Positions 31,131 to 57,675 of a stretch of 64,000 bases of DNA are shown one piece after another. Where the stretch lies: positions 62,001-126,000 of the forward strand of contig NZ_JALEKL010000009.1 in NCBI RefSeq assembly GCF_022768985.1, given 5' to 3'. Made by a program: the position numbers and the translations under genes. Source of the DNA: Methanosphaera sp. GTDB lineage: Archaea > Methanobacteriota > Methanobacteria > Methanobacteriales > Methanobacteriaceae. Under the pieces are notes generated by a model. The model did no database searches. It worked only from the letters and a program-made list of their open reading frames with translations, and was not told the DNA's origin. Each line of letters begins with the position of its first letter. Position 1 is the first letter of the stretch.

Positions 31131-31832
31131 ATGTTAGATCAATTGATGCAATATGGAATACTTGCAGCAATACTAGTATTTGGTGTAAAAATAGGACTTG
31201 CATTAGGATTTTCAGGAATAAAAAAACGAAATGTAGGATACATACTAATAGCATATGCAGTAGCATTAATAGTACTATCATACCTAATGGAACCATACAC
31301 AGACCAATTATACTTCTTTGTATACAACTACTCATCACAAATATTTGCAGTAATAGCAGTTGTAATTCTACTAACAGGATTTAAAACAATCTATGACTGG
31401 AAAGTAACAGGATCAGATGTAGGAAGTGCAACGTGTATGGCAGTAGTTGCACCATGTCCATGCTGTTTTGGAGCAATTCTATCAACAATACTCCTTGTAG
31501 CACCTATGACAACAATTCCTACAGTAACAATGGGTGCAGTATCATCATTAGCACTAGTTGCAGTTATGGGTTTAACATATATATTATCAAATAAAATAGT
31601 TGCAAAAATACACAGACCATATCCTATTGTACTTGGAGATTTTATGATATTTATAGGATTATATTTTGTACTATGTTTACTGATTTTACCTAATATTGAA
31701 CTTTTAACATTAGGTACCCCAATAGAAATACAATCACTTGGTAGTGTAATTAAGATGGTTGTAGTAATAGCAGTTGTAATGCTAATTGGAGCAATATATA
31801 CAAGACGTAATAATAGATTTATAAAATACTAA
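31131..31832 (+). CDS. DUF2162 membrane protein, putative transporter
   Basis: The 233-residue protein has about six or seven hydrophobic segments and matches the archaeal DUF2162 family as I recall it. A conspicuous Cys cluster, APCPCCFGA near residue 104-112, lies at the start of a transmembrane helix. The sequence ATC just before it adds a further Cys. Clustered cysteines suggest metal or thiol chemistry, though function is unknown. It is the first gene of a three-gene unit with an ExbB/TolQ homologue and a DUF2149 protein, so transport energised by the proton motive force is a reasonable inference. AAAGGAGGG precedes the ATG. Confidence 0.75.
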   Translation: MLDQLMQYGILAAILVFGVKIGLALGFSGIKKRNVGYILIAYAVALIVLSYLMEPYTDQLYFFVYNYSSQIFAVIAVVILLTGFKTIYDWKVTGSDVGSATCMAVVAPCPCCFGAILSTILLVAPMTTIPTVTMGAVSSLALVAVMGLTYILSNKIVAKIHRPYPIVLGDFMIFIGLYFVLCLLILPNIELLTLGTPIEIQSLGSVIKMVVVIAVVMLIGAIYTRRNNRFIKY

Positions 31833-31909
31833 AAAAAGGGAATCTATTAAAAAAAATAAGAGAGAAAGTCTTATATTTTTAAATTAATTAAAAAAAATGG
31901 AGGCCAATT

Positions 31910-32554
31910 ATGGCAAGCACAATTCCTGGAGGAGAAGCTTTATCAGGAATTTTGAATGTAATATCACAGAGTTTATTACTTCCAGTAATGATATTACTGG
32001 TTATATTTATTATATTTGCAATAATAGAGTTAGGATCAATAATTGCAGAATATACAAGTCGTAAGAAAATTACAGCAGAAGATAAAGAAAAACTTATAGA
32101 AAATATTACAATTTCAAAAACAAAAGAAGAAATAATAGATGCAATCAATAAATCAGCATTTTCAAAATATGATAAAGAACTACTATGTAAAGTAGCAAAA
32201 CTCGACCCAGAAGCATATGATAAAAAAATACGTGAAGTACTAGCACGTAACCTTCTCGAAGATCAAGAAGGTAAAATAATACGTACACTTGAAAAAGATG
32301 AAATTGTTGCAAAAGTAGGATCAGGATGTGGACTTCTAGGAACAATTATACCTATGGGTCCTGGACTTGCAGCATTAGGTTCAGGTGATATGACAACACT
32401 TACATCAAATCTTACAGTTGCATTTAACACAACAACTACAGGTCTTGCATCAGGAACATTATGTTTTGTTATAGCAAAAATACGTCGTCGATGGTATCAA
32501 AAAGATATAGATGACCTTTATGATATAGCAGAAGTAATTCTTGAGGTGATATAA
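31910..32554 (+). CDS. MotA/TolQ/ExbB-family proton channel subunit
   Basis: The 214-residue protein has one N-terminal transmembrane helix (about 20-45), a charged cytoplasmic domain (about 47-140), and two C-terminal helices with the family pattern GSGCGLLGTIIPMGPGLAAL and then TTGLASGTLCFVIAKIRRRW. ExbB and TolQ form pentamers that, with an ExbD or TolR dimer, convert proton flow into mechanical work on envelope proteins. Its stop is followed after one base by the start of the DUF2149 gene, implying tight co-translation. The upstream gene ends 77 bases before it, and GGAGG precedes its ATG. Confidence 0.85.
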   Translation: MASTIPGGEALSGILNVISQSLLLPVMILLVIFIIFAIIELGSIIAEYTSRKKITAEDKEKLIENITISKTKEEIIDAINKSAFSKYDKELLCKVAKLDPEAYDKKIREVLARNLLEDQEGKIIRTLEKDEIVAKVGSGCGLLGTIIPMGPGLAALGSGDMTTLTSNLTVAFNTTTTGLASGTLCFVIAKIRRRWYQKDIDDLYDIAEVILEVI

Positions 32555-32555
32555 G

Positions 32556-32873
32556 ATGTCACTTAGACGAAGTAGACTGCGTGGTGAAGTTGATGATACA
32601 GATCCAATGTCATCAGCTGTAAATATGACAGATATCATGCTTGTACTTGCTGTTGGATTTCTAATATTTGCTGTTATGTCAACAGGAGCTGAAAGTATAT
32701 CTCAAGCACAACAACAGCAACAAAGTGCAGCACAAACAACAGAATTAGACCAGCAGACAACAGAACTTGACACAACACCTGAAGCTGTTACATCATCAGG
32801 TTCTGGTTATGAACAGAAAGGTACAGTATACCAAGATCCAAAAACTGGAAAGATGGTAATGGTATCATCTTAA
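32556..32873 (+). CDS. DUF2149 protein, ExbD/TolR-like partner
   Basis: The 105-residue protein has a short basic N-terminus, one membrane helix (about 23-42) reading NMTDIMLVLAVGFLIFAV, and a Gln/Ser/Thr-rich extracytoplasmic tail ending GTVYQDPKTGKMVMVSS. The Asp at position 26 at the start of the helix, followed by MLVL, matches the proton-carrying Asp of ExbD and TolR. I therefore regard DUF2149 as the ExbD-equivalent of the adjacent ExbB homologue; that is inference from motif and context. The tail is much shorter than the ExbD periplasmic domain. Start and stop of the two genes are one base apart. Confidence 0.8.
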   Translation: MSLRRSRLRGEVDDTDPMSSAVNMTDIMLVLAVGFLIFAVMSTGAESISQAQQQQQSAAQTTELDQQTTELDTTPEAVTSSGSGYEQKGTVYQDPKTGKMVMVSS

Positions 32874-33202
32874 TAGTTAATGAGTGTTATATATTTACAC
32901 TCATCTTCCAATAATCTCCTTTTTATAATTTTAAAATCCTACTTTTAATGATTTATTTCTATTTTAAGGTTAAATTAATCCGTATTTTTTTATTTACACA
33001 TTTATAAAAGTTCTATTTAAATAAAATTATGTAAATTTTGCTACATAAATTAATAAAATAAATTTTAATTAAAATTTAAGAAACCTTATTAATTGTTTAG
33101 TATATAAATAAATAGTACATAAAAGATAAAAAATTAAAAAAACTTGAATAGGTATTAGTTTTTTATAATTTATGCAAATATCTTAACAAAATAGGTGAGT
33201 AG
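32874..33202 (+). other. Intergenic region between DUF2149 and the first plus-strand adhesin-like gene
   Basis: No coding frame is visible. It contains the hairpin terminator at 32880-32904 and, near 33099-33115, an AGTATATAAATA-type TATA box that would start the 1693-residue adhesin-like gene with a leader of about 70 bases. AGGTGAGT precedes that gene's ATG. Confidence 0.5.
32880..32935 (+). terminator. Hairpin terminator of the DUF2162-ExbB-DUF2149 operon
   Basis: ATGAGTGT (32880-32887) and ACACTCAT (32897-32904) form a perfect 8-bp stem with a nine-base loop, seven bases after the DUF2149 stop. A pyrimidine-rich stretch and a T tract follow (32905-32930). Confidence 0.6.
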
Positions 33203-36200
33203 ATGAAAACCACAAAAAAATTACTCATAGTTAGTGTAATTTTATTGACAGTTATGATAACAGGTTGTGTATCTGCTGCAGATAACAGCACAACAACATC
33301 AGATGATACACAAACTACAACCATATCAGATGATATTTCAACTACCCAGGCAATACAAACTACAGATACAGTTAAAGAAAAAACTGTAAAAAGTAGTAGT
33401 AGTGAAAATATCAAAACAAAAGACAATAAAAATACAACAACTAAAGTAGAAAATAAGGAAATAAAAAAAGATTCACAAAAAACAGTTGAATCTACTACTA
33501 AAACAACAAAAAAAGGTGCAAAATACGATGTAAGAAGCAGTGACTACGACCTCTATTTTGCATTTAATGAAACAACAAATATGACCCAGACAACAAATCT
33601 TGTAAGAGCTGGAGATACAATCAACCTACTTGGTGAATTTAAAAATGTAAACTTTACAATAGACAAACCAGGTATGACAATAACAAGTGAAGGACGTAAT
33701 GCAAGATTATACAACTGTTCAGTTCTTGTAATGGGAATAAACTCATCAAATTCAACAGTTGAAAACTTAACAATAAACAACTCAAACTTCTATGGTACAG
33801 GAATACACACAAATGTAACAAAAAACATCACAATATACAACAATAAAATACATGTAAATGGTCCATTTGCATTTGCACTAGCTGCAGATTCAATGAACAA
33901 CAGTTATGTATATAAAAACTACTTTGAAACATCAACACGTGAAGATACATTCCGTACACATACAGCAGCAGCATTTGGTTCATGTTACTACAACTTAATT
34001 AAAAACAACACAGTAGTAAGTGACTATGCAAACGGTATATACTTCTCAGTATATGGATCAGGAAAATTCCTTGGAGGATACTGTTATGATAACAACGTTA
34101 CAGGAAACGATGTAACAGGAGGAGATACATCCTGGTCATACACAATCCAGATTATGGGAACCAGAAACATCATAGACAACAACAGAGTACGTGGTGGATA
34201 TCGTGGAATATCAACACAGGACTTTACAAACAACACAATTATAAACAACGATGTTAATGGTACAAATGAAGGAATATATGCATGTGAAGGTGCAATTGTA
34301 TTAAACAACTCAGTACGTGTAAATGGTTCAACAACAGGTATTACAGTTGGTGGAGATGGAGTACTTCTTGAAGGTAACTACATATCATCAAACAATGGAA
34401 GCTGTGTTGTAATAAGTGCAAACAACGTAACAATAAAAGACAATACAATGTGGTCAACAGACAGCTACTGTATATATTCAAAAGGTAAATATACCCAGAT
34501 AAATATTACTGGAAACGATATGAGAAGTAAAAAAGCTGGAATTCTATTTAGAAAACAATCAACAACAAAAAGAATAAACCATGTAAGTGTAACAAAAAAT
34601 AGAATTCAATCATATGGAGATTGTGCAATAGACTTTACAGAAGCAGGAGCACTAAATCCGGCAGATGTAAATATAACAGTTGCAGATTCAAATGCACTTA
34701 ACTGTTCTGCTGGATCAGGACTTGAAAAAGCATATCTTCCACCAGCAGCAGGAAGTAGTGAAAATACATCAGATTCAAATAAAACATATGTAGTAACAGA
34801 AGATACATACTACCAATACTTTAATGATGATTTCTCAGTAAATACACGTAAAGTTCTAAAAAATGACACAATCATACTTCAAGGAACATTTACAAATAAA
34901 GACTTCCTATTCCCAATAAAAGTACATGTAATTGGAAGAAATTGTATAATAAATGAAGGTACAGTAAGATTTTCAGAAGATGCATCAGCATCAACAGTAT
35001 GTAATGTTACAATAATAAACAAAGGAAATAAAACATACAATAGACATGGAATAGAATTACTTGAAGTAAACAACTGTAATGTTACAAACAACACAGTATA
35101 CAACTATGACTTATGGGAAAGCTTTGGAATATGGGTATATTCATCAAGTGGATCAAGAATTACAAAAAACATAGTTGTAACATCAGGTGACTATGTAAAT
35201 CATGGAATTTTATTATATGCATCAGATCTAAGTATAGTTGCAGATAATAAAGTACACCTAAATCAGTCAGCAAAACCAGTTCAATATGCTGATGAAATCA
35301 TGTATAATGAAAAAATGGGAACAATAGGAGAAGTTCTACACAACTATGGAATACTTCTATTATATTCATCATATAACACAATTGAAAACAACAATGTAAC
35401 AACAAAATCATTATTTAAAGAATACACATTCCCAACAACTGATTGTAAAAACAGTGTTGTAGGAATAGATGTATACTATGACAGTAACTACAACCTTATC
35501 CAGAACAACAACATTAATGTAGATAGTCTTGGACCATATGCATATGGTATGGGAGTTCTTGGAGCACCATGGGGAAGTTCAATAACTGCTATAAATGCAA
35601 CAAACAACACATTTACAAAAAATAATGTAACAGTAAAAGGTGGATACTTTGCAACAGGATTTATTGCAGGACTTCACAGTGTATATACACTCGTTGAAGA
35701 TAACCAATTTACAGTAAGTGCTGTACATAATTCTACACAAAAAGGTGACTATGTATATGGATTAACACTTGAAGCTGCAAGAAATACAACAGTAAGAAGT
35801 AATACATTTAATACATCAGGAGCTGCTGTATATAATGTAGAAATCTTTGATTCAAATAACAATGAATTAATAGGAAATGACTTCACATCAATTGGATCAT
35901 ACCTCTATGGAGTTGCAGGATACCGTGCATGTGACAATAAAATAATATCAAATAACTTCTCACTTAAAAATGCAAAATATGGAGATGTAGCAAAAGCAGT
36001 ACATAGTGATGCAATACCATATGGTAATGCTGGAGTTCTTCTAATGTATGACAGTTTCAGAAACAATGTAACATTAAATACAATAAACTCAACAGCACCA
36101 TACACAGTTAACCTTACAGTACAAGCAATTAACAACACAGTTGTTGAAAACTCATTAAGATCAGCAAAACTTATAGGTGATGCATCAGTACTTAATGATC

Positions 36201-38284
36201 ATGCAACAAATAAAGTTGAAAGAAACTTCCTACATTTTACAACAGCAAGTATGTCACCAATTAAGGCAACAGTAGGACAACCATTTACAATAAATGGAGT
36301 AGTATCAGCAACAACAAGTGATCTTTCAAATATCACAGTACAACTTAAAATGGGAACAACACTTCTTGGAACTACAAAAGTAGCAAAAGATGGTAAATTC
36401 TCAGTAAAAGTAAATGAAACAAGCTTCTTTAAACCAACATCATATACAATTACAGCATATGTAACAGGTACAAACTTCCAAAATGCAACAACAACAGCAA
36501 CACTTAACTTAAATAGAACACTTAAAGATCCAACAGTAACAGTTACAAAAGTAAAAGCACTACCTGGTGCAAATGTAACATTTACAGTAAATGTTGAAGG
36601 ACCACTAAGTGATAAACCAGCAGGACAAATCATACTTAAATTAGATGGTAAAGTTCTAACAACACAAAATCTTACACTTGGACGTATAACATACAAATAT
36701 AAACTTCCAATGAACATACAACCAGGAATACACAATATTACTGCTGTATATAGTGGAGATGATAAGTATTCACCAGCTGAAGGAAGTAACATCCTAGGTG
36801 TACTTACAACATCAGTAACAACAACAGATGCTAAAAAAGGTGCAATTGGAGATAAAATTAACATAACAGCAAAAGTTACATCAAATGGAGCAGCAGTAAA
36901 AACAGGAAAAGCAACAATAATAGTAAATGGTATGAATGTTGCAAAAGTAGATGTAGTAAATGGAAAACTATCATATCAATACACCATACCTACAAACTTC
37001 ACAACTAAAGTATATAACATAAAAGTAAAATATGAAGGTAATGATACAATAGCAGCATCTACAGGAAACAATAATCTTACAGTTGTTGCAAAACAATCAA
37101 AAATTAACTTCAACACAACATATGCAACAGTAGGTGAAAATACCAACCTTAAAATCAGTATATCTGATATGTCAGGTAAAATCCTTGCAAAAGGTGGAAG
37201 TTTAACAATTAAAATTAATGGTAAACAACTTAAAAATCCTGATGGAACACCAGTTACAGGAAAAGTTGACTCAAAAACAAATCTTGTAGTATTTACATTT
37301 ACAGCTCCATCATCACTTGTAGGTAAAAATAATGTATCATTTGCATACTCTGGTGATAATCAATTTACATCATCTGAAGGAACATTTACAAATGCACTTA
37401 TTATAAATCCTAAAGGAACACCAACAAAAATCGTAGTTAATAATGTAACAGCAAAATATGGCTCAAATGCTACATTTAAAGCTACAATATATGATAATAA
37501 TGGTAACCTTGTAACAAGTGGTAAAGTTGTATTTAAATTAAATGGTGTTACACTTAAAAAAGGTGGACAGCCAATAAAAGTTGACGTAGTAAATGGTGTT
37601 GCACAACTTACATACTTTGTTAAAAATACAGCAAAAGACTATAAACTTACAGCTGTATTTTCAGATAACAAAGTAAGACTTGAAAAACAAGTAACATTTA
37701 AAGTAATACGTGCAGATAAATACCTAAAACTTGATGGTATAATAACAACAGGCAACAGTGCTAAAATTACAGGTAAAATCTATGATGAATTTGGAAACCT
37801 CGTATGTGGTAATACAAAAGTAACAGTTAAAATCAATGGTAAAACAGTTCTTAGTAAAGTTGCAGTAGCTAATGGAACTATGAATATTAACCTTGACACT
37901 AAAAACTATAAAGATGGAGTATATAATGTTACAATTATTGCAGGTGAAAATAACATGCAAAATATGGTATCAAATAACACTCTTCTTATGAAAAATGTTA
38001 AAGATGCAATCGTTGTAATGCCACAAACTGCAAAAAGAGGAACAACCATAACTCTTACATCATATGTATTTGATAAAAATGCAAATCGTATGAGTACTGG
38101 TGATGTTGTTTATAAATTAAATGGTAAAACTATTGCTACAAAAACAACAGTGCAAAATGGTATTGCAACAGTACAATATACTATACCTGAAAGTTATTCA
38201 GCAAAAGATTATACTCTTACTGCTAACTACTCAAATGGTAGTATGAAACTTACAAATTCAACAGTATTATGTATTACTAAATAA
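33203..38284 (+). CDS. Giant adhesin-like protein: long beta-helix and seven or so Ig-like repeats
   Basis: The 1693-residue exported protein has a signal peptide whose hydrophobic core ends MITGCVSAAD, giving either a lipobox (ITGC, Cys at 22) or a signal-peptidase I site after VSA. A Ser/Thr/Lys-rich spacer runs to about 105. A right-handed beta-helix with NosD-like short repeats (for example ITGNDM, IENNNV, IIDNNR) occupies about 110-1000, apparently in two halves that each begin with a YDLYFAFN/YYQYFNDDF block. Ig-like domains follow (about 1015-1693; FKLNGVTL, YSGDDKYSPAEG, AVYSGD). It ends without membrane anchor or wall-binding repeats. It is the first of four tandem adhesin-like genes. 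A TATA box lies at about 33099. Confidence 0.87.
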   Translation: MKTTKKLLIVSVILLTVMITGCVSAADNSTTTSDDTQTTTISDDISTTQAIQTTDTVKEKTVKSSSSENIKTKDNKNTTTKVENKEIKKDSQKTVESTTKTTKKGAKYDVRSSDYDLYFAFNETTNMTQTTNLVRAGDTINLLGEFKNVNFTIDKPGMTITSEGRNARLYNCSVLVMGINSSNSTVENLTINNSNFYGTGIHTNVTKNITIYNNKIHVNGPFAFALAADSMNNSYVYKNYFETSTREDTFRTHTAAAFGSCYYNLIKNNTVVSDYANGIYFSVYGSGKFLGGYCYDNNVTGNDVTGGDTSWSYTIQIMGTRNIIDNNRVRGGYRGISTQDFTNNTIINNDVNGTNEGIYACEGAIVLNNSVRVNGSTTGITVGGDGVLLEGNYISSNNGSCVVISANNVTIKDNTMWSTDSYCIYSKGKYTQINITGNDMRSKKAGILFRKQSTTKRINHVSVTKNRIQSYGDCAIDFTEAGALNPADVNITVADSNALNCSAGSGLEKAYLPPAAGSSENTSDSNKTYVVTEDTYYQYFNDDFSVNTRKVLKNDTIILQGTFTNKDFLFPIKVHVIGRNCIINEGTVRFSEDASASTVCNVTIINKGNKTYNRHGIELLEVNNCNVTNNTVYNYDLWESFGIWVYSSSGSRITKNIVVTSGDYVNHGILLYASDLSIVADNKVHLNQSAKPVQYADEIMYNEKMGTIGEVLHNYGILLLYSSYNTIENNNVTTKSLFKEYTFPTTDCKNSVVGIDVYYDSNYNLIQNNNINVDSLGPYAYGMGVLGAPWGSSITAINATNNTFTKNNVTVKGGYFATGFIAGLHSVYTLVEDNQFTVSAVHNSTQKGDYVYGLTLEAARNTTVRSNTFNTSGAAVYNVEIFDSNNNELIGNDFTSIGSYLYGVAGYRACDNKIISNNFSLKNAKYGDVAKAVHSDAIPYGNAGVLLMYDSFRNNVTLNTINSTAPYTVNLTVQAINNTVVENSLRSAKLIGDASVLNDHATNKVERNFLHFTTASMSPIKATVGQPFTINGVVSATTSDLSNITVQLKMGTTLLGTTKVAKDGKFSVKVNETSFFKPTSYTITAYVTGTNFQNATTTATLNLNRTLKDPTVTVTKVKALPGANVTFTVNVEGPLSDKPAGQIILKLDGKVLTTQNLTLGRITYKYKLPMNIQPGIHNITAVYSGDDKYSPAEGSNILGVLTTSVTTTDAKKGAIGDKINITAKVTSNGAAVKTGKATIIVNGMNVAKVDVVNGKLSYQYTIPTNFTTKVYNIKVKYEGNDTIAASTGNNNLTVVAKQSKINFNTTYATVGENTNLKISISDMSGKILAKGGSLTIKINGKQLKNPDGTPVTGKVDSKTNLVVFTFTAPSSLVGKNNVSFAYSGDNQFTSSEGTFTNALIINPKGTPTKIVVNNVTAKYGSNATFKATIYDNNGNLVTSGKVVFKLNGVTLKKGGQPIKVDVVNGVAQLTYFVKNTAKDYKLTAVFSDNKVRLEKQVTFKVIRADKYLKLDGIITTGNSAKITGKIYDEFGNLVCGNTKVTVKINGKTVLSKVAVANGTMNINLDTKNYKDGVYNVTIIAGENNMQNMVSNNTLLMKNVKDAIVVMPQTAKRGTTITLTSYVFDKNANRMSTGDVVYKLNGKTIATKTTVQNGIATVQYTIPESYSAKDYTLTANYSNGSMKLTNSTVLCITK

Positions 38285-38371
38285 TTGAAATAAATTAGAT
38301 AATTTATTTCTTTCTATTTTTATTTTTTTTTAAAATTTAATTAAAATATTAACTTATCAGCTATTTTTTAA

Positions 38372-38394
38372 TAATTAAGTATAATATTTATTAA
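38372..38394 (+). promoter_or_regulatory. Putative promoter element shared by adhesin-like genes
   Basis: TTAAGTATAATATTTATTAA starts at 38376, about 100 bases before the start codon. Its core GTATAATATT recurs at similar distances before other adhesin-like genes (about 41169, 43926, 51988, 60639, and 24975-24984 on the minus strand). Confidence 0.35.
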
Positions 38395-38476
38395 CATTAT
38401 AAGTATACTTAATGTAATCAATTAATTTTTATAAAAAATTTAATATGATTGATTATATCGTTTAACTAAAAAGAAG

Positions 38477-41050
38477 ATGAATAAAATGGCAAATAAAAAA
38501 ACATTAATTTTTGCTGCTATTTTAATTGTATTTCTAGTAGGAATAACTGCAACATCAGCAACAGATGATGTAGACACTCAAGTATTATCAGATAATAGTA
38601 ATACACAAGATGTAGTATTAGCTGATAGTAATGCAGAAGATAATATTGCATTAACTGATAATATGAAGGAAGTACCAACAGTATCTGAAGCATCAGAAAA
38701 AAATATTAAAAAACCTGCTGTTACTTCAAAAGAGGATACAACAAAAAGTAGCACAAAAGACACAAAAAAAGATGGAGAAAATAAAACCTATAATGTAACA
38801 AATTCTAACTATAATAAGTATTTTGCATCTACAGGTGAAATACTCTCAGCAGTTAGTGCAAATTCAACACTTATATTAAGTGGAGAATTCCAAGATAAAG
38901 ACTTTATTATTACAACAAATGGATTATATGTTACAGGAGATAACACAACACAAATTAACAATGGTAAAGTCTACATTGATGGTATGGCAAGTAATGTAAC
39001 TGTAACAAATCTTAAAATTACAGTAAATAATGTTGATGAAATAGAAGCAGCAATTGATATTGAAGGATTAAATACAGCAGTATCAAATAATATCATACAC
39101 ATAACAAAAGATAATGGAAAAGCATATGGTATTAGAAACAATGGTGGAGAAAATGCTACAATTATAGGAAACCATGTTGAAGTATATGGACCTTCCATGG
39201 ATATTGACTGGACTGGATCAGAACCAATGGCTGTTACAAGTGCTATAATATCAATATATGCAAACAATGTAGTAATTGCAAATAACACAGCAAAAGCATC
39301 AAAAGGTGAAAATGCAGAATCTGATTATTATGGTACAATTGATGCTGTTGAATTAAAAGGTGAAAATATAACAGTTGATGGAAACAGAATCTCTGTTGAA
39401 GGTGCAAGATTTGGATATGCAGTAAATGGTCTTGAATTTTCAAATTCAAACATTACAAACAATAAAATTGAAGCATATGGTGAACGTTACATTGATGGTA
39501 TCCAAATAGGAAATGGAGCACATAACCTTTTAATTGCAAATAATGAAATTACAGGTGTATGTCAAAATAAAACCATATTTAAAGATGATAATGAAGCTAT
39601 GTCATTTGGTATTATCTCAACAAATATGGGTGGAACAACTAGTGAAAACATAAATATTACAAACAATACAATTAACATGAATGCTACAATTGCATATGGA
39701 ATGGAAATTTATGGTGTATCAAACAACTTAATATCAGATAATAAATTAAATCTTCAAAGTTCAGCATTTGCAATGGGTATTGGTCTTGCTCATTCAAAAG
39801 GCATTACAATTAATAACAACACAGTAATAACAAAAGGTAACAGTGGACTTAAAGTAAATGAAGTTGTTGAAGAAATCAGACCAGCAAACCATGGAATTCA
39901 TGTACAACAACAAAGTGATAATGTAAAAATTACAAACAATGTTGTATTAACAGAAGATGCAGTAGCTGAAAATGCAACTGCAGTTCTTATAAATTCATCA
40001 GCAAATCCTATTGTTAAAAATAATGCTCTTGATACAAATACACAAAGTGGAGCTGATGCAATAGTTACAACAAATGTTACAGGAGCTACAATTGAAAACA
40101 ATACAAGTAATAAAACAGGAAAAGCAAAAGCTGAAATTAGTATTGTTCTTCCAAGTGAAGCTGTAACATCAACAACAATAAAAATTAAAGCAAATGTTAT
40201 TAATGAAGCAACAGGTGCTAAAGTAAATGAAGGAACTGTTGTATTTAAAATTAATGGTAATACTATTAAAATGAATGGTAAAAGTGAAATGAAAGTAACA
40301 AATGGTGTTGCTGAAGTTAGCTACTACCTTAATGGTCTTACAGCTAAATCATATAAAATTACAGCTACATATTCTGGTAGTGATAATTATGATGAAGCAG
40401 AAACTACATCAAATCTTAATGTATTAAAAACTAATATTTCATTTACTCCTAAAACAATCACAGGATATTCTGGTGAAACAATAAAACTTAATGAAACATT
40501 ATGTGATGTTAGTGGTAAAACATTAATTGGTAAAAATAAAATTGTTATTAAATTAAATGGTAAAACATACTATAAAGGTACAATTGAAGATGGAAAATTA
40601 GATATTAGCTTAAAACTTCCAGATGGACTTAGAGCTGGTGTAAATAATCTTACAATTATAATTGGTGAATCAAACAGATACAACCAGGCATCAACACTTT
40701 ATACAATTAATACACCAAAACAGGATACAATTATTACAATTGAACCTGTAAGTACATATGGTGCTGTATATACTACATTTAAAGCTACATTTAAAACAGC
40801 TCATACAGGTACAAATGTTTTAAGTGGTAAAGTTGCATTTAAAGTAAATGGTAAAACTATCCAGAATATGGATGAACAGGGAAATGTTATTAAAGAACCT
40901 GTTCGTGTAGTTGATGGTGTTGCTATACTTCACACATTCTTCCCACTTGACATGAAATCTAAAAATTATAATATTACAGTTACATACTCAGGTAACAACT
41001 ATGCAAATAGTGGTCGTGAAACTTTAGTTGATGGACTTACAATATTATAA
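38477..41050 (+). CDS. Adhesin-like protein with one beta-helix module and a conserved C-terminal Ig-like domain
   Basis: The 857-residue exported protein has a signal peptide (ANKKTLIFAAILIVFLVGIT, cleavage near ATSATDD) and a Ser/Thr/Lys spacer. One beta-helix module (about 110-545) begins with NYNKYFASTGEIL and LSGEFQDKDF. The C-terminal unit (about 550-857) contains LPSEAVTSTTIKIKANV, FKINGNTIKMNGKS and three Ig-like folds. The same module and tail occur in the next two genes. The ATG at 38486 (MANKK), with GAAGATGA as ribosome-binding site, is as likely a start as that at 38477. No anchor is recognised. Confidence 0.86.
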   Translation: MNKMANKKTLIFAAILIVFLVGITATSATDDVDTQVLSDNSNTQDVVLADSNAEDNIALTDNMKEVPTVSEASEKNIKKPAVTSKEDTTKSSTKDTKKDGENKTYNVTNSNYNKYFASTGEILSAVSANSTLILSGEFQDKDFIITTNGLYVTGDNTTQINNGKVYIDGMASNVTVTNLKITVNNVDEIEAAIDIEGLNTAVSNNIIHITKDNGKAYGIRNNGGENATIIGNHVEVYGPSMDIDWTGSEPMAVTSAIISIYANNVVIANNTAKASKGENAESDYYGTIDAVELKGENITVDGNRISVEGARFGYAVNGLEFSNSNITNNKIEAYGERYIDGIQIGNGAHNLLIANNEITGVCQNKTIFKDDNEAMSFGIISTNMGGTTSENINITNNTINMNATIAYGMEIYGVSNNLISDNKLNLQSSAFAMGIGLAHSKGITINNNTVITKGNSGLKVNEVVEEIRPANHGIHVQQQSDNVKITNNVVLTEDAVAENATAVLINSSANPIVKNNALDTNTQSGADAIVTTNVTGATIENNTSNKTGKAKAEISIVLPSEAVTSTTIKIKANVINEATGAKVNEGTVVFKINGNTIKMNGKSEMKVTNGVAEVSYYLNGLTAKSYKITATYSGSDNYDEAETTSNLNVLKTNISFTPKTITGYSGETIKLNETLCDVSGKTLIGKNKIVIKLNGKTYYKGTIEDGKLDISLKLPDGLRAGVNNLTIIIGESNRYNQASTLYTINTPKQDTIITIEPVSTYGAVYTTFKATFKTAHTGTNVLSGKVAFKVNGKTIQNMDEQGNVIKEPVRVVDGVAILHTFFPLDMKSKNYNITVTYSGNNYANSGRETLVDGLTIL

Positions 41051-50000: not shown

Positions 50001-51861
50001 TGACTGGGCTGGTGATGGTATTGTAAAAACAATTGCAATAGCAACACTTGGTGGAGATAATGTAACAATTGCAAACAATACAGCAAAAGCATTACAAGCT
50101 CCAAATTCAGTAGTTGAAATGTATGGTTCAATTGATGCTGTAGAATTAAAAGGTACAAATATACGTGTTGAAAACAACAATATTACAGCAAAAGCTGAAG
50201 GTGCAGGATTTGTATATGCATTAAATGGTCTTGGAATGGCTGATGTAAACATTACAAACAATACAATTGAAGCATACAGTGAAAGATACATTGCAGGTAT
50301 ACAAATTGGTAGTGACTTCATATCAGGTATTGATGGAGCAAATGTATTAATTGCAAACAATAGAATTATTGGAAATTCCAAAAACTTAACAGTACTTGCA
50401 GATAATGAAGCTATGGCATATGGTATTATATCATCAACCATGGGTGGAAATGCATGTAAAAATACAACAATTATTAACAACACAATTGATATGAATGCAA
50501 CTGTAGGATATGGTCTTGAATTATATGGAACACAGACAACAACAGTTAAAAACAATACAATTATAATGAGAGGCATATATTCAATAGGTATGGGATTTGC
50601 TCATGCAGCAGGAAATATAATTGATTCAAATAATATTACAACATATGGAGATAGTTCATTAAAAATACAGTCAGTTGTTGAAGAAATTGTACCTGCAAAT
50701 GTAGGTATAAAACTACAACAAGGTAGTGGTAATTCAAATATTACAAACAACCAAATATTAACAATTGATGAAAATAAAAAAGCTACAACAATTAATGTAG
50801 TTGGAAGTGACGATGTAATTATTAAAAACAACATTGTAGATACAAATGTACTTAATGGTGAAGAATCAATATCTGCAAATGGAACAGGTGTAAAATCAGA
50901 AAACAATACAAGTTACAAATCAAAAACACAAACAGTAGTAGATCTTCCAAGTGAAGCTGTAACATCAACAAACATAACAATAAAAGTTAATGTAATTGAC
51001 ATAAATACAAATGAGAAAATAAACTCAGGTTATGTTGTAATTAAAGTGAATGGTAAAACAATACAAGTGGATGGTTCATCAAAAATCAGATTTATAAATG
51101 GAACAGCACAAGTTACATATTCACTCCTAGGATTTACAGCAAAAGACTATGATGTAGTTGTAAAATACAGTGGAGATAATTTAAATCTTAAATCTGAAAA
51201 TTCAACAACATTCACAGTAGTTAAAACTAACATGACACTTGAAAGTAAAACACTTACAAAGTATGCATCAGAAGAAATAGAAGTTAATGAAACACTAAGA
51301 GATGTAAATGGAAACGTGCTTTCAGGACGTAACAAAGTTGCTGTAAAACTTAATGGTAAAACCATATACAATGGTGAAGTAATTGATGGTAAATTATACT
51401 TTAAAGTAAAACTTCCAGCAGATCTTCGTCCAGGAGTAAGTAATCTTACAATTATTATTGGTGAATCAAAAACAACAAATGCAAACTCAGTAAATTACAC
51501 AATTAACGTTGAAAAACAGGATGTAATTATTACAATTGAACCTGTAGCATCTATGCCAGGAAGATACACAACATTTAAAGCAACAATGAGAACTGCTATT
51601 TCAAATATGACAGTAAATGGTGGTAAATTCTCAGTAAAAATAAATGGTAAAACAATTACACCAATGAATACTGATAAAACACCAAGTAATGAAACTCCAA
51701 GAGTATATAATGGTGAAGCAGTGCTTAAAACATTCATACCTAGTGATATGTCAGCTAAAAAATACGATATTACATTCACATATGCTGGTGACAACTATAC
51801 TAATGGATGTAAATGTACACTTAATGATGGATTAATAGTTATTGCTAAAGTTAAAGCATAG
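44047..51861 (+). CDS. Giant modular adhesin-like protein with five tandem beta-helix modules
   Basis: The 2604-residue exported protein starts with a signal peptide (MLNKKSSFILLALLIVFLTG, cleavage near ATAADT) and a Thr/Lys spacer. Five modules of 438-442 residues follow, beginning at residues 95, 536, 978, 1418 and 1856. Each opens with a (D/E)NY..YF block, an LSG(E/D)F(T/E)(D/N)K(N/T)F strand, and NNTxxxx-type beta-helix rungs, and each contains a GYG(L/M/I)E(L/I/V)Y segment. One C-terminal unit (about 2295-2604; LPSEAVTSTNITIKVNV and three Ig-like folds) closes the protein. The single-module neighbours have the same ends, so this gene looks like an expanded version. Modules 2 and 5 are nearly identical in places. 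AAGGAATTGA precedes the ATG. Confidence 0.88.
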   Translation: MLNKKSSFILLALLIVFLTGLTAATAADTNDSQAISESVNVASADVISQVDVTTQTNDVVTTTANKPTQKKAIKNEKVVKKDDTTTNTTTNINKDNYNTYFDSTGTTLDTIKENTTIILSGDFEDKNFQITTPNLYITGDDTTNIKNGQIRIDVAASGVTLTNIKINNTNITSFDSSIENSAENVTISNNNVFMEKVSGFTYAIRNYGANTKITQNNVTLNGPCTDIDFSGEGLANTIAIVTLYCENVSIANNNVSVNQANGTTPTSYGTIECIDMKGKNITVNNNTLSIKAKKFVYAVNALGAEDVKITNNKIHAESERYTAGVQYGTDYSGLYESKGLYLANNNIKCISKKASASDDEAIAYGAIASSNPGYSCENVTLENNTINLNANVGYGIEVYTVTGSKVNKNNINVNGSRAMGIVYAHSINNMVDSNIINTTGDNSTKIGSVVEEITPVNVGIQLQQGSHFTNITNNQIYTEDKKDQAKTINVASVNDVIIKNNILDTDKEHGQATISAKGTDITLENNTRYTIIITKENYSLYFDDDGVITGLEENDAITLSGEFTDKNFIITLPGINVFGDNTTIIRNGRILITEDAMNVVISGIKINNTNTTIEASIENQADNTVVANNTVYMTKKTGTTNGIKNTASNVVISDNNVTVYGPSENIGWDSGSSLTNTIAIATLDGYNVTVTNNIAKALQNPNTEAEAYGTIDGIEVKGTEVRVNNNTIVVEGKYTSFVYAINGLGMADVNITNNRIEAYSERYIAGIQVGSDFTSGIDGANVLIANNTIIGNSKNLTDLPDNEAMAYGIISSTMGGSACENITIINNNIAMNATVGYGLELYTTNKVKVINNTITMRAPYAMGMGFAHATENIIDSNNITTYGDSSVGIQGVVEEIQPANVGIQIQQESDDTNITNNRVITFDAASGALAINVEDSNNLVVKNNIIDTNTDHGTKAMSIPKGQSVENNTGYITTVTKDNYSQYFNAKGEMINIPECSQVILSGEFTDKNFTVTVPGTLITCDENGIIRNGKVRIDSNATSATISHININNTNTTIDASIENAATNAIIVNNTIYMQQATGITQGIKNYAGYTLIRANNVTVYGPCVGIDWNGEAIANTIGIVTLYGDNVRILNNNIKVFQTNGTTAEAYGTTDGIDVRGNRVSVLNNNIEVNAQVYTYGINVMGEKLKIQNNTINMKSERYVAGIQAGSDYSGIYNCKNVNITNNKITGIANKTSKNASDAVAYGIISSSMGGSMCEKIKIDNNTVDLKSNVGYGMEIYTCINTNITKNNIKVDAIYATGIGVSKSINNNIKLNNITTHGNSLKTIGAVSEDIEPANAGINLDSGSHYTNITNNKIYSDDTNNTAKTVNVKANNNDILIANNIVDTNTLNGQDSIALATGVDVKSENNTRNIIIITQDNYSQYFDANGKMLDTIQANLAITLSGEFTNKTFKVTKANLLITGDNTAQIINGQILINSKNTTLKNIKINDTDATFNYAIQNNGENTLIDNNTVYISKTTGIVNGIQNNADNVTIANNNVTVEGPSNNIPWSYDVSYADTIAIITADSEDVLIENNTVTALHNNKTTPASTGTIYAIEAYGMTVTINNNTVVVYSPKYAYAINTVGCEDVYVTNNNIKATSERYIAGIQLGDAPDAEVLNNTINGVCANTTALTNEEAIGYGVIVQSIMGMCDNTIINNNIININSTIAYGVEVFSSRYSNITNNNITLNGAYSIGVGLALSRPVNITANNIKICGDSSQKINPITENVQPAISGVVTTQGACNATILNNNIHVIDLNGNATGVLIGNVTLKNSIDATVKNNIIDTNTLHGNDAVLNTTTSNMIVENNTGLITTITEDNYSQYFNENGEMINIPQYTQVILSGEFTNKTFTITTPYITISGDNTTIYNGKVTINNAAMGVILSGIKINNTNTTIEVSLENNADNTVIANNTVYMEKVSGTTNGIKNKASNVVISGNNVVVYGPCAGIDWAGDGIVKTIAIATLGGDNVTIANNTAKALQAPNSVVEMYGSIDAVELKGTNIRVENNNITAKAEGAGFVYALNGLGMADVNITNNTIEAYSERYIAGIQIGSDFISGIDGANVLIANNRIIGNSKNLTVLADNEAMAYGIISSTMGGNACKNTTIINNTIDMNATVGYGLELYGTQTTTVKNNTIIMRGIYSIGMGFAHAAGNIIDSNNITTYGDSSLKIQSVVEEIVPANVGIKLQQGSGNSNITNNQILTIDENKKATTINVVGSDDVIIKNNIVDTNVLNGEESISANGTGVKSENNTSYKSKTQTVVDLPSEAVTSTNITIKVNVIDINTNEKINSGYVVIKVNGKTIQVDGSSKIRFINGTAQVTYSLLGFTAKDYDVVVKYSGDNLNLKSENSTTFTVVKTNMTLESKTLTKYASEEIEVNETLRDVNGNVLSGRNKVAVKLNGKTIYNGEVIDGKLYFKVKLPADLRPGVSNLTIIIGESKTTNANSVNYTINVEKQDVIITIEPVASMPGRYTTFKATMRTAISNMTVNGGKFSVKINGKTITPMNTDKTPSNETPRVYNGEAVLKTFIPSDMSAKKYDITFTYAGDNYTNGCKCTLNDGLIVIAKVKA
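44329..50930 (+). repeat. Five in-frame tandem repeats of about 1320 bases
   Basis: Module starts are at 44329, 45652, 46978, 48298 and 49612, giving spacings of 1323, 1326, 1320 and 1314 bases, all multiples of three. The last ends near 50930. Sequence similarity is highest between the second and fifth copies. Confidence 0.85.
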
Positions 51862-51877
51862 CTTAATCTATTCAACT

Positions 51878-51911
51878 CTCCCCCATATTTTTTTTATTTT
51901 TTTTTTGAATT
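51878..51911 (+). terminator. C5 cluster plus T tracts after the 2604-residue adhesin-like gene
   Basis: CTCCCCCATA is followed by an eight-T tract and then a longer T run a few bases on, starting about 17 bases after the stop codon. No stem-loop is apparent. Confidence 0.45.
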
Positions 51912-52095
51912 ACTATTTTAAAATTTCCTTTAAATTACTAATGTCTTTTTTAATTTTTCTTAAAATTACTTAATTAATTATGGTTAACTATATTAGTTAT
52001 ATCAAATTAATATTGTTATCAGTGTATAAAAGAAATTTTAATAATTATCAACATTAATTAAAAGGTTTTTCAATGCACTAAAAAAGGAGTTATAT

Positions 52096-55000
52096 ATGAT
52101 GAAAAATAAAAAGATCTTTTCATTATGTATGATGATTTTTATAATTTTGATTTGTATAACGGCAGTAAATGCACAAGAAACACAAAACAATAACACACAA
52201 ACAACAATAGAACAACTAAATAATACAACAGCAGACATACCAACACTAGCAACTGATGATAATATAGATAAATTATCATTAAAAGAACCAACGACGGTAT
52301 CAAAACAAACTGAAACTAAAAATATAAAGCAGAAAAAAAGTAGCAGTACAGATAAACAATCAACAACTACTACTACAACTAAATCTGCTAAAGAATCAAA
52401 AGACAATATAACTCAACAAGACGATAATGGAAACATTAAAGTTCCAACAACAAACAAACAAATCAAAACTGACTCAGTAAAAGTAATTAAAACCGAAAGC
52501 ACCAAGTATAATATACAAGGTAATGTAACTTGCGTATTAAACAAAACAACAGGAAAATATGTTGGTGGTGAAGAAGACGGTTACGGAGTTAAGGATGCTA
52601 AAGTAACACTTTATGATGCAAAAGGTAAACTCATAGCTACAACAAAATCAGATGAAAAAGGTAATTATATCTTTAGCAAACTAAATCCAGGAAAATATAA
52701 AGTAAAATATGAATATGGTACATATCTTGCAGGTGATGAAGAAATAACAATCACCAATGAAACAGTTCTAATGAACCATGTATTTATACCAGATATAGTA
52801 TTTATAACATCAAGTCAAGGACTAGAAGAGGGACAATATAAGAAGATACAAATTCTTAAAAGTTTAAGTGATCGTATCTTGTTCCTTGAATCATACAACC
52901 TAGATAGTACATATGATACATCTGCACATTGGATGCTAGATTATGCAAACTTCATACTAGTTGACATGTACAGCCAAGGACTTGGATTTGGAGTAGATCC
53001 TAACCTTATACGAGACTCTCCAGCTTCCAAAAATCATATGATAGCATATACCTTTGGTATGTATAATGATGCTATGCTACTATCACTTGGATGGGGATAT
53101 CTAGGAAATAACCCACATTCAATAGAAAATACATATATGGGTTCATATTGGCAAGCAGAAGCTACCAAAAATGAAACTGTAACAAGAATTAACATGCAAA
53201 ATATGCTTGACTATATCAGATTCCTTCTTGGAGAAACTGACATAAATCCTACACTTGTAGGTAATGGACCAAGAATGCCAGGACCACAATGGGGTGTATA
53301 CTACCCAGGTTATACAAGAACAGTTCCATCACCAGATGCAGAGTTAATTAATAAATGGATTCATATAGATCCAGGATACAATGCAGATGGTGCAGGAAGT
53401 CTTAACTGGATGACAAACTATTATAACCACTGGATTGTTGAACATCAAGATCCAGTCGAGTTACTTCAAAACTTCGAAACATGGTATAATAAGAATGTAA
53501 ATCTTAAAGGTCCATTTGTTGTAATTATAAGCTACTATGAAACTACAGCAGAAGTAGAAGCATTAATTAAAGAATTTGAAAAACAAGGTAAACCAGTATT
53601 TTGTTTATATCAGTATGCTACTACAACTCCATCAATGACCGAATTACTTGAAATTGCAGCAACAAAAGGTTTAAAACGTGGAATTAGTGCTGGAAGTTCA
53701 CTTTATGGATGGTCAACATCATATTCAACAATGAATACAAACACAACTGTTAATTCATACCTAAAAACTAACATAACAATACTAAATGCACTATCAGGTA
53801 TTAGTAAAAAAAGTTATGAAAGTGAATATGGACCACAATCAGAATGGACATACCAAGTTACAATTCCAGAATTTGAAGGTATTATTGGACCTATTCCAAT
53901 ATCATATATTGATGATGATGGAAAAACAGTAATTATAAGTGAAAGTGTTAAAAAACATGTACAGCTTGTAAAAGGTTGGGCAAATCTTAAAGAAAAGAAA
54001 AATTCAGATAAAAAAATTACCATTATGGTTTATGATTATCCACCAGGAAAAGCAAACATAGGTGCATCATATCTTGATGTATTTACAAGTACACATGATT
54101 TACTTGTACAACTTGCACTCCAAGGATATGACCTAGGAATGGATATTAAAGATATTCCTACAGCAGAAGAATTAACTACAATGATGATTGATGCTGGTAA
54201 CAAAGGTGGATGGGCACAAGGTTTCCTTGAAAAATATATCAAAGAAAACAATGCTACAATCACTAAAAATCATCAACTTATCAGTAAATCTGAATTTGAA
54301 GTAATGTTTAATCAACTACCTAAAAACTTACAAGATCAAATGATAAAGTCATGGAATACAGGTCTTGGAAATGGATCAATGATCTATAACAATTCATCAA
54401 TTCTTATTCCAGGATTCTATCTTGGTAATGTTTTCATAACATCACAACCTGCAAGAGGTTGGGATTCAGTAGCTGATTACCACAGTGATACACTTGCACC
54501 ACCACAACAATATGTAGCCTTCTATAAATACCTATACCAATACTTCCAAGGTGTTAAAGGATCAAGTACAGATGCTATAATAAGTATGGGTACACACGGA
54601 ACCCTTGAATGGCTTCCAGGACGTAATCTTGGACTTCAAAGTAGTGATTGGACCTTCCAATTAACAGAAGTACCTATTATATATCCATACATTGTATCTA
54701 ACCCTGGAGAAGGTATGACTGCAAAAGAAAGAAGCTTCGCTCAAGTTATTACACACATGACTCCTGTAACAACAGCTTCAACATTATATGGTGAATACTC
54801 ACAACTTAGTGATGCTATATCAAATTATGATAATAACAAAAAAATTGGTGATGAAAGCAACATGGCATACTACAAAGAGTTAATATTAAATATTACCTCA
54901 ACAAATAGTAGTTTCCCAACAGCAAACTTCCTTAAAATGCAGGAAAACATCACACAATATAAGTATGCACGTGATATGAACGATATAATGCTCATGGAAT

Positions 55001-57675
55001 TAAGTAAAAGTTCAATCTTTAACTTATCAGAATCACTTAATAAATCCATGTATCAATACTTCAACTTCACATTACATAACCTTACATTTGATGAATACCT
55101 AGATAAAATGTATACATATGTAACAAGTCAAGAAGCATTTGAAGCATGGCTACAAACATTACATGAAAAACTTGAAAGTTTAAGTGGAGATACAATAACA
55201 TATGGTGTACATACACTTGGATATGTATGGAATGATACAGAAATGGTTCAAGGTATAAAAACCATTGCATCTTCAAGAACAGAAATACTACAACATATCA
55301 TGGAACTCTACTATCAAATAGATGGAGATTACTATAAAAAGATTAAATCAACAAGCTTCCTTGAACAACAAAAAAACATAGAAGCAACACTTGAAAATAT
55401 AGTAACACGTCTTGTAAAAGATACATCACTTGCTATGGTAAATACTATTGCAGGAGAAGTAAACCAGAAACAAGGCAGTCCATTTTATGAAGATCTTCTT
55501 CAAATTAAAGGATTAATTGAAGGAGTACGAGATAACATGGAATGGAATTCCATACTTGGAGCATTAAGTGGTGGATATGTACAACCTGGTCTATCTGGTG
55601 ATCCAGCATTATCAGATGTAATTCCTACTGGTAGAGCAATGTATTCAAGTGATACATCAAAAATGCCAAGTAAGGCTGCATGGTCAACAGCAGTAAAAAC
55701 TGTTGATGAAACATTAATTAAATACATGAGAGACTTAGGTGAAGACACATATCCTGAACTTGTTGCAGAAGTAATATGGGGTACAGAAGTACTTCGTACA
55801 GAAGGTGTAAGTATTGCTCAATTCCTATACCTACTTGGAGTAAAACCTGTATGGGATCAAAGTGGAAAAGTAACAGGAATTGAAGTAATGCCACTAGATG
55901 AGCTTACACTCACAGTTGATGGTACAGTATATCAACGTCCAAGAATCGATGTATTTGCAACAATTGTTACAAATAACCCTCAATGGATAGGATTAATGTA
56001 TAATGCAACACAACTTGTAAGTAAGTTAAATGAAAGTGTAGATGACAACTATGTCTTAAAACATCTTGAAAAGAACAACTCCACCTATAGACTATTTGGA
56101 CTTAACGGTCCAAAACTTGAAGGTACAGGAGTATCAGATCTTCTAAACAACATTGCATCCTGGCAAAACTCCTCAGATGGAGTAAGTTATGAGGCAGCAA
56201 GTGTATATGAATCAAGAATTTCAAATGCTTGGACTGTTGATGCAAGTGGAAACATAGTTGTTAAACCTGCAGAAAAAGCAGCATTTGTATATCTACTTTC
56301 ACACGTTGATCTTGTTATACAAAACCTTGACAGTACATGGAGATATCTTGACTCAGACGATTATACTGACTGGTTTGGAGGATTACTAAATGCAGCAAAT
56401 GTACATGGAGCAGTACCAAATACAATGTTACTTGATATACGTAATAAAAATAACGTTGTAACAAACACTATTTCACAAGAGGTAAGTAAAGAAGTAATGG
56501 GTACAATTACAAACCCACAATGGTTACAAGCTATGACATCCTCAATTGGTGGATGGAACCAGCTATCACAAAACTTTGAAAACCTTATAAAATCAATCTT
56601 TACAACCCAGAAATATGCTGAAGATGAAAATGGTAAAGCTATCCATCAAACAAACAAAGGAAATAATACAGGACTTATAAGTAATGAATTATTTACCAAT
56701 GTTGTTAAAACTGTTGTATATAGTGACTACCTCGTAGCAGATGCTGACTATAAATCATATGCTATGCAATCTATGACTGGATGGGCAATGACATTAGCAA
56801 TGAATAATTATTGGAAAACAAATGACAATAAGCTAATGAAAGACTTAATCCAGAAATATGTTGATGGTGCAAATAAATATGGAGTTGCATGTTGTCACCA
56901 CACATGTGGTAACGTAAACTTGCATGAATGGATTTTAAAAACAGGTTCTCAATTTGGTGTAAAAGGTTTAGAAAGATACTCACAACAGTACTACTCAGCT
57001 ACAAAAACAGGTACAGTTCTTGGAACTGGTGACTCTGGAAATGGAGCTGGTTCAGGTTCTGGTGGAGAAGGTAACGGTACTGGTAGCAATGGCGGTACTC
57101 AAATTGGTGACTCAAGTTTCCAAGGATATGGAGATAATGGAGTATCAGATCCTAATTCTCAATATCAAGGTTCAGGATCTTCATCATCAGGAAGTAGTAG
57201 CAGTGCAGCTATAAGCCAGATGACAGGTCAATCAGGACAAAGTAGTGGAAATGATAAACCTAACTCTGGTAATAATACTGGTAATAATACCGGTAACCAA
57301 ACATCAAATGGAACAAATGGAAATAGTACAGGCCAAAATGCAACAAATGGTACCAGCAATGGTAACAACAATGCTAATGGTCAAGCAAACAATAACCAAG
57401 GAAATGCAACAGGTAATGGAGATAAAACAGCAGGTGAATCACCAGCATCAGATGAAGCAGCATCAGCAGCTGAATCATCATCTTCACAAGCATCAGCAGC
57501 TTCAGCACCTGCTGGAACTACAAGTGCAACAGCAACAGTTCTAGAAGTATCAGCTTCTGGTGGACAGAAAGCATCATCTCAGGCTGAAATTTCACTCGGT
57601 TATCTTATTGCAATCGTACTACTTGCATTAATATTCCTTACAGGATTCCTTAAAAGAAATCCTAGGGATGGATAA
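52096..57675 (+). CDS. Exported, membrane-anchored CobN/BchH-type chelatase homologue
   Basis: The 1859-residue protein has a signal peptide (MKNKKIFSLCMMIFIILICI, cleavage near VNAQE) and a Thr/Lys spacer. A carboxypeptidase-regulatory-like beta-sandwich (about 133-225; KDAKVTLYDAKGK, GNYIFSKLNPGKY) comes next. A CobN-type chelatase domain (about 230-1640) includes GTHGTLEWLPG (His 834). The segment CCHHTCGN lies at 1599-1606. A Gly/Ser/Asn-rich linker (about 1645-1830) leads to one transmembrane helix (1835-1852) and a basic tail. Cytoplasmic CobN inserts cobalt into a corrinoid ring using CobS-CobT; here the chelatase domain would face outside with no ATPase partner nearby, so a biosynthetic role is doubtful. 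Binding or trimming of external tetrapyrroles or metals is possible. AGGAG precedes the ATG. Confidence 0.85.
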   Translation: MMKNKKIFSLCMMIFIILICITAVNAQETQNNNTQTTIEQLNNTTADIPTLATDDNIDKLSLKEPTTVSKQTETKNIKQKKSSSTDKQSTTTTTTKSAKESKDNITQQDDNGNIKVPTTNKQIKTDSVKVIKTESTKYNIQGNVTCVLNKTTGKYVGGEEDGYGVKDAKVTLYDAKGKLIATTKSDEKGNYIFSKLNPGKYKVKYEYGTYLAGDEEITITNETVLMNHVFIPDIVFITSSQGLEEGQYKKIQILKSLSDRILFLESYNLDSTYDTSAHWMLDYANFILVDMYSQGLGFGVDPNLIRDSPASKNHMIAYTFGMYNDAMLLSLGWGYLGNNPHSIENTYMGSYWQAEATKNETVTRINMQNMLDYIRFLLGETDINPTLVGNGPRMPGPQWGVYYPGYTRTVPSPDAELINKWIHIDPGYNADGAGSLNWMTNYYNHWIVEHQDPVELLQNFETWYNKNVNLKGPFVVIISYYETTAEVEALIKEFEKQGKPVFCLYQYATTTPSMTELLEIAATKGLKRGISAGSSLYGWSTSYSTMNTNTTVNSYLKTNITILNALSGISKKSYESEYGPQSEWTYQVTIPEFEGIIGPIPISYIDDDGKTVIISESVKKHVQLVKGWANLKEKKNSDKKITIMVYDYPPGKANIGASYLDVFTSTHDLLVQLALQGYDLGMDIKDIPTAEELTTMMIDAGNKGGWAQGFLEKYIKENNATITKNHQLISKSEFEVMFNQLPKNLQDQMIKSWNTGLGNGSMIYNNSSILIPGFYLGNVFITSQPARGWDSVADYHSDTLAPPQQYVAFYKYLYQYFQGVKGSSTDAIISMGTHGTLEWLPGRNLGLQSSDWTFQLTEVPIIYPYIVSNPGEGMTAKERSFAQVITHMTPVTTASTLYGEYSQLSDAISNYDNNKKIGDESNMAYYKELILNITSTNSSFPTANFLKMQENITQYKYARDMNDIMLMELSKSSIFNLSESLNKSMYQYFNFTLHNLTFDEYLDKMYTYVTSQEAFEAWLQTLHEKLESLSGDTITYGVHTLGYVWNDTEMVQGIKTIASSRTEILQHIMELYYQIDGDYYKKIKSTSFLEQQKNIEATLENIVTRLVKDTSLAMVNTIAGEVNQKQGSPFYEDLLQIKGLIEGVRDNMEWNSILGALSGGYVQPGLSGDPALSDVIPTGRAMYSSDTSKMPSKAAWSTAVKTVDETLIKYMRDLGEDTYPELVAEVIWGTEVLRTEGVSIAQFLYLLGVKPVWDQSGKVTGIEVMPLDELTLTVDGTVYQRPRIDVFATIVTNNPQWIGLMYNATQLVSKLNESVDDNYVLKHLEKNNSTYRLFGLNGPKLEGTGVSDLLNNIASWQNSSDGVSYEAASVYESRISNAWTVDASGNIVVKPAEKAAFVYLLSHVDLVIQNLDSTWRYLDSDDYTDWFGGLLNAANVHGAVPNTMLLDIRNKNNVVTNTISQEVSKEVMGTITNPQWLQAMTSSIGGWNQLSQNFENLIKSIFTTQKYAEDENGKAIHQTNKGNNTGLISNELFTNVVKTVVYSDYLVADADYKSYAMQSMTGWAMTLAMNNYWKTNDNKLMKDLIQKYVDGANKYGVACCHHTCGNVNLHEWILKTGSQFGVKGLERYSQQYYSATKTGTVLGTGDSGNGAGSGSGGEGNGTGSNGGTQIGDSSFQGYGDNGVSDPNSQYQGSGSSSSGSSSSAAISQMTGQSGQSSGNDKPNSGNNTGNNTGNQTSNGTNGNSTGQNATNGTSNGNNNANGQANNNQGNATGNGDKTAGESPASDEAASAAESSSSQASAASAPAGTTSATATVLEVSASGGQKASSQAEISLGYLIAIVLLALIFLTGFLKRNPRDG

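Follow-up and report, generated by a model that had tools for sequence, protein, structure and literature searches.

What work can an ExbB-type proton motor do in a cell that has no outer membrane? The question is raised by a 64,000-nucleotide stretch of a Methanosphaera sp. genome (contig NZ_JALEKL010000009.1, positions 62,001 to 126,000 of the forward strand; hereafter the window), in which genes for the membrane protein DUF2162, an ExbB homologue and the ExbD-like DUF2149 are followed on the plus strand by four genes for adhesin-like proteins (ALPs) and one for a homologue of the CobN chelatase. In Bacteroidota, the related HmuU and HmuV are currently drawn as powering an outer-membrane receptor, and the authors of the HmuS work regarded the use of archaeal HmuS/CobN homologues as unclear, complete hmu operons being lacking in archaea (PMC12583661). 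The combination of an exported chelatase with such a motor in organisms that lack an outer membrane is real and widespread, and the window locus is a variant of the Hmu/BtuS systems that does without that membrane. With a probability of roughly one half, it encodes an extracytoplasmic, membrane-anchored tetrapyrrole chelatase or dechelatase system coupled to an ExbB/ExbD-like proton motor, most likely for cobalt or corrinoid acquisition.

Linkage of the motor genes to an exported CobN

All eight genes, the four named ones and those for the ALPs, were found with the positions and domains originally predicted. DUF2162 (31131..31832, PF09930, E=3.5e-58) is a seven-helix membrane protein with an APCPCC (CPxC) motif. 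The ExbB/TolQ/MotA-family protein, a homologue of HmuU, is encoded at 31910..32554 (PF01618, MotA_ExbB, E=1.4e-8, 35 bits against a cut-off of 22.9), and DUF2149, a homologue of HmuV with one transmembrane (TM) helix and an ExbD-like DIMLVL motif, at 32556..32873 (PF09919, E=6.8e-17). The CobN homologue occupies 52096..57675 (PF02514, CobN-Mg_chel, E=5.7e-187). All four Pfam matches exceed the curated cut-offs. A single base separates the ExbB stop from the DUF2149 start, which is consistent with the proposed co-translation of the pair, and about 20 kb lies between these motor genes and CobN. The CobN homologue begins with MMKNKKIFSLCMMIFIILICITAVNAQ and ends in a hydrophobic helix followed by KRNPRDG. 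By hydropathy and sequence reading, rather than a dedicated signal-peptide program, it reads as an exported, membrane-anchored protein, in agreement with the signal peptide and C-terminal anchor that had been predicted for it.

The clustering of these genes in other methanogens, which the original prediction had put forward, proved genuine in the neighbourhood survey, both within the genus and across many other genomes. Among 20 Methanosphaera genomes, DUF2149 and CobN are on one contig, about 2–27 kb apart, in all 13 in which linkage could be tested. The distance is 20 kb in the window, about 10 kb in four genomes (G114, G115, G116 and G128), 13 kb in G113, 5 kb in G125, 2 kb in G117 and 6 kb in G119; G123 and G131 have the genes about 11 kb apart on opposite strands, and G120 and G129 have two pairs each. 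Four fragmented assemblies (G118, G121, G126 and G130) have DUF2149 and CobN on separate contigs, and in G122 DUF2149, DUF2162 and CobN are all absent together. The proximity of DUF2149 and CobN in the genus is more than chance. In the wider survey, of which the 80 loci are those nearest to the query rather than a random sample, CobN, DUF2162, ExbB and DUF2149 stand directly next to one another in Methanobrevibacter, Methanothermobacter-type genomes, Methanoflexus, an actinomycete metagenome-assembled genome (MAG) and Firmicutes. The Planctomycetes Brocadia, Jettenia and Loosdrechtia have CobN-ExbB-DUF2149, which in the one tested is preceded by a TonB receptor.

Clade, motifs and cobalamin riboswitches

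In a FastTree phylogeny of 63 sequences rooted on BchH, the window CobN falls into one clade (support 0.999) with other exported forms of methanogens, those of Firmicutes, Planctomycetes and Trichlorobacter, and HmuS. It is outside the clade of true cobaltochelatase CobN from Sinorhizobium and Azotobacter, and apart from BchH; branching within the exported clade is weakly resolved. The equivalent of the HmuS catalytic His538 is retained in ISMGTHGTLEW (the GTHG motif). At the HmuS His1209 motif, LSLDHxxEFMGG, the window has LDSDDYTDWFGG, with Asp at that position, so that this second motif is the SDDY of the Sinorhizobium and Azotobacter cobaltochelatases rather than the DH of HmuS and BchH. 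A C-terminal CCHHTC motif is found in the window, in CobNs of the same type from other methanogens and in riboswitch-linked Firmicutes; all nine complete CobNs linked to a riboswitch share it with the window (9/9), and it was not found in cytosolic true CobN or BchH. At the same place most members of the other methanogen CobN class have CCDCSC, Planctomycetes and Trichlorobacter have CC[DE]HTC, and HmuS has a degenerate form. In Carboxydocella (L146:10997-20378), two consecutive exported CobNs with differing Cys motifs lie downstream of the motor genes.

The bacterial relatives point to cobalt or corrinoid. All five Firmicutes loci with CobN in the first survey have a cobalamin riboswitch (Rfam) 53–510 bp upstream of the first gene, against a background of 2–10 such riboswitches per genome. 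Five more Firmicutes genomes, picked by DUF2162 alone, also gave 5/5, making 10/10 loci in total; in four of these five the riboswitch precedes the operon by about 150–300 bp. At one locus (L215) it heads a run of ribonucleotide reductase, a FecCD-type ATP-binding cassette (ABC) importer, DUF2162, ExbB, DUF2149 and CobN. On the Trichlorobacter plasmid, tandem cobalamin riboswitches precede the cluster, which sits among cobamide genes. A riboswitch is also upstream of a CCDCSC-type CobN at a truncated locus (L216), therefore the motif class alone does not settle the metal. The original prediction was of an energised system capturing external corrinoid, F430-like or metal compounds. Its corrinoid/metal theme is borne out by these riboswitches and by the CbiM and FecCD importers of related clusters, and hosts without an outer membrane were likewise found.

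Several observations weigh against corrinoid or cobalt acquisition by a motor-coupled chelatase. The substrate in archaea is argued from bacterial relatives, and the branch that joins window-type CobN to the Firmicutes forms in the tree has low support (0.111). The window itself carries no riboswitch or other Rfam regulator, a tRNA being the one Rfam match. CbiD, of corrin synthesis, is present in the window genome and no FecCD permease was found there, therefore an intact corrinoid would need some other, unproven route inside. It could possibly enter through DUF2162, or the metal alone may enter. Corrinoid auxotrophy was rejected as the driver, CbiD being present in 20/20 genomes of the genus. 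Around the window-type CobN of Methanobrevibacter (L090, L093 and L100), motor genes are absent to a distance of about 9 kb, and a related cluster in M. marburgensis seems to respond to nickel (PMC12350162).

This last point is the strongest argument for a version of the same architecture directed at nickel, with the surface CobN capturing or stripping nickel from F430-type tetrapyrroles or other nickel complexes and the nickel then being imported, a possibility that is unlikely but deserves weight. Under nickel limitation 'CobN1', NikR1 and 'Transporter MTBMA_c10530' are raised in M. marburgensis (PMC12350162). MTBMA c10550-10570 is listed as a CobN-like chelatase (PMC3087415), and c10530 would be the ExbB gene of this split CobN cluster, judging by gene order in a locus taken to be that of M. 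marburgensis (L080). At that locus (L080:11367-16295) CobN is split into three open reading frames (ORFs) beside DUF2162 and ExbB, the relative L081 having one ORF of 1708 aa. Genes of the CbiM/NikM type, of energy-coupling factor (ECF) transporters, also cluster with DUF2162-ExbB-DUF2149; however, CbiM may transport cobalt as well as nickel. The Methanothermobacter CobN is of the CCDCSC class, whereas that of the window is of the CCHHTC class, and the bacterial systems with CCHHTC are tied to cobalamin riboswitches.

It is improbable that the genes are neighbours without a common function, the motor serving surface-protein or cell-wall processes and CobN being unrelated to it. Such an arrangement would fit the 20 kb between the parts in the window, the unlinked CobN of Methanobrevibacter and the ExbB-DUF2149 pairs that are found elsewhere with large surface proteins and no CobN, but not the linkage throughout the testable Methanosphaera genomes, the contiguity in many other taxa, the correlation of CPxC with CobN described below or the riboswitch operons that the genes have in common.

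Relationship to the Hmu and BtuS systems

Removal of iron from heme, as by HmuS in Bacteroidota, is a very doubtful function for the window locus, for all the likeness of the two systems. In the hmuYRSTUV operon the CobN-like chelatase (HmuS dechelatase, PDB 9d26; PMC12583661) is exported, is anchored twice and carries the GTHG His. The order CobN-membrane protein-ExbB-DUF2149 in methanogens, Firmicutes and the actinomycete MAG is that of hmuS-T-U-V in the Prevotella, Bacteroides and Aureibacter records, and HmuU (ExbB) and HmuV (DUF2149) of the Prevotella hmu genes are in Pfam families identical to those of the window. Clade, gene order and the retained His538 motif therefore agree with a heme function, and the CobN-like BtuS proteins of M. 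barkeri vary with the iron source (PMC10846266). The window differs, however, in having Asp at the second heme-site His, a CCHHTC motif, genus-specific ALPs between motor and CobN, and DUF2162 in the place of HmuT. DUF2162 has no detectable homology to HmuT (hhalign probability 0.3% against three HmuT proteins), neither HmuY nor the outer-membrane receptor HmuR was found among the larger window ORFs scanned, and relatives with the identical CCHHTC motif carry B12 riboswitches. Cobalt insertion in corrin biosynthesis by an ordinary cobaltochelatase CobN is hardly credible, as the Pfam family and SDDY motif in common with those enzymes are outweighed by the signal sequence and anchor, the position outside their clade and the extra CCHHTC region.

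The BtuS family was named earlier (PMC6460266), and hmu-like operons with B12 riboswitches are known in Bacteroidota (PMC10100974). These also have exported CobN-like proteins with ExbB and DUF2149, and B12 regulation in some operons (PMC6460266, PMC10100974). Since such operons and the BtuS family were already known, the window system is counted as a variant rather than as a new kind. The Bacteroidota operons depend on outer-membrane receptors, whereas the window and Firmicutes systems have no outer membrane and possess DUF2162. A plasmid cluster of Trichlorobacter (Geobacter) lovleyi (PMC3403914) resembles the window in its DUF2162-ExbB-DUF2149-CobN genes and has cobalamin riboswitches and cobamide genes, but differs in having TonB-dependent receptors, a separate exbB-exbD-tonB set and the CobN motif CCDHTC. 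The presence of the module plus this separate set within one cluster suggests that the module is not merely the TonB motor. That chelatase and motor are conserved as a unit where no outer membrane exists, in Firmicutes together with B12 riboswitches, is an argument for a motor in the service of the chelatase or of a step at the inner membrane.

As in TonB-ExbB-ExbD, TolQR and MotAB, the window has a putative ExbB-family channel, accompanied by a small protein with one TM helix and a conserved Asp; unlike these, it has no TonB and no outer membrane, and DUF2149 is without a recognisable ExbD periplasmic domain. A profile search with ExbB matched MotA/TolQ chains at E of about 0.002–0.01. Its segments GLxGT and FxTTxxG are invariant, and hydropathy counts two TM segments, the MotA/TolQ/ExbB family being marked by three TM helices and a proton-conducting oligomer. 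DUF2149 has the ExbD/TolR-family trait of a single N-terminal TM helix with an Asp, and this Asp26 is invariant across 28 proteins from archaea, Firmicutes, Planctomycetes and Bacteroidota. DUF2149 was nevertheless rejected as a true ExbD, homology being undetectable past the TM motif: only 12 columns aligned with the T. lovleyi ExbD (probability 1.5%), and a PDB profile search gave TolR and ExbD TM peptides only at E=0.63 and 5.6.

The DUF2162 CPxC motif is present at 46/46 loci with CobN and 17/44 loci without, counts in which the loci are not phylogenetically independent. The AlphaFold model of DUF2162 (mean pLDDT 81) predicts a seven-helix fold with no PDB match at E<=0.001, which gives no support to an electron conduit of the CcdA/DsbD kind or to any known transporter fold. 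Several copies lacking CPxC adjoin CbiM-type ECF genes and FmdE-domain surface proteins, or FecCD-type ABC importers; in L130 CbiM occurs together with a DUF2162 that bears CPxC. In the FecCD arrangement (L154:5635-10944, and similarly L139, L142, L152, L158, L159, L161 and L162) the importer and an FmdE-domain protein immediately precede CPxC-less DUF2162, ExbB and DUF2149, and the motor module is thus also paired with metal-chelate importers. At L112:4514-11003, and similarly in L077-L079 and L130, DUF2162-ExbB-DUF2149 comes after genes for an FmdE-domain surface protein, a CbiM-type ECF component and two small proteins of 2 TM helices each. A single run at L116:2607-10970 contains both CbiM-type ECF genes and CobN-DUF2162-ExbB-DUF2149.

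In the proposed chelatase system, the ALPs and anchored CobN would capture a metal-tetrapyrrole, most likely a corrinoid, outside the membrane. ExbB-DUF2149 would turn proton flow into motion on CobN, DUF2162 or both, instead of on an outer-membrane receptor, and cobalt, or the corrinoid itself, would be handed by way of the CobN CCHHTC site and DUF2162 (CPxC) toward the cell interior. More tentatively, a proton motor that works on an anchored extracytoplasmic chelatase, prising metal from the tetrapyrrole or passing it to DUF2162, may represent a class of ExbB-type machines with which single-membrane archaea and bacteria harvest corrinoids or metals. Both the use of the archaeal homologues and the role of the motor become testable, and the system is relevant to how gut methanogens and anaerobes compete for cobalt, nickel and cobamides.

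Adhesin-like genes and surroundings of the locus

The four adhesin-like genes had been thought insertions between the parts of the system. They are best read instead as conserved members of the locus. ALP1 (33203..38284), a beta-helix/Ig-like surface protein (Beta_helix, NosD, Big_3_5), has a 40–59% identical homologue adjoining DUF2149 in 12 other Methanosphaera genomes. Outside the genus, where the target set was limited to CobN and ExbB-DUF2149 loci, its matches are beside window-type CobN (L084, L090, L093 and L100) or ExbB-DUF2149 (L087 and L120); three control surface proteins of the window showed no such adjacency in the same neighbourhoods. ALP2 is kept at the locus across Methanosphaera and has three genes in the window. 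ALP2a (38477..41050) is 36–43% identical to a protein of about 850 aa at the equivalent place in other Methanosphaera, and ALP2b (41278..43803) is a tandem copy with 47% identity to it. ALP2c (44047..51861) has 2604 aa and is apparently a tandem expansion of this unit of about 850 aa, its C-terminal part being 44–48% identical to ALP2a and ALP2b. The ALPs are perhaps receptors.

An inverted repeat, AGTGTAT...ATGCACT (52021..52079, plus strand), in the CobN leader is a possible cis-regulatory hairpin. Several CobN leaders of other Methanosphaera carry matching stems (e.g. CAGTGTATTC...GAATACACTG) in which the changes are paired, and these have no counterpart upstream of the neighbouring ALPs; the statistics are weak, with fold z-scores of -2.4 to 0.1. 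A conserved operator upstream of DUF2162 in Methanosphaera was rejected, no 6-base gapped palindrome being common to at least three species. The surface-protein array is flanked by two sugar nucleotidyltransferase genes on one side (25083-27085) and by dTDP-glucose dehydratase and dTDP-4-dehydrorhamnose reductase genes on the other (58252-60180).

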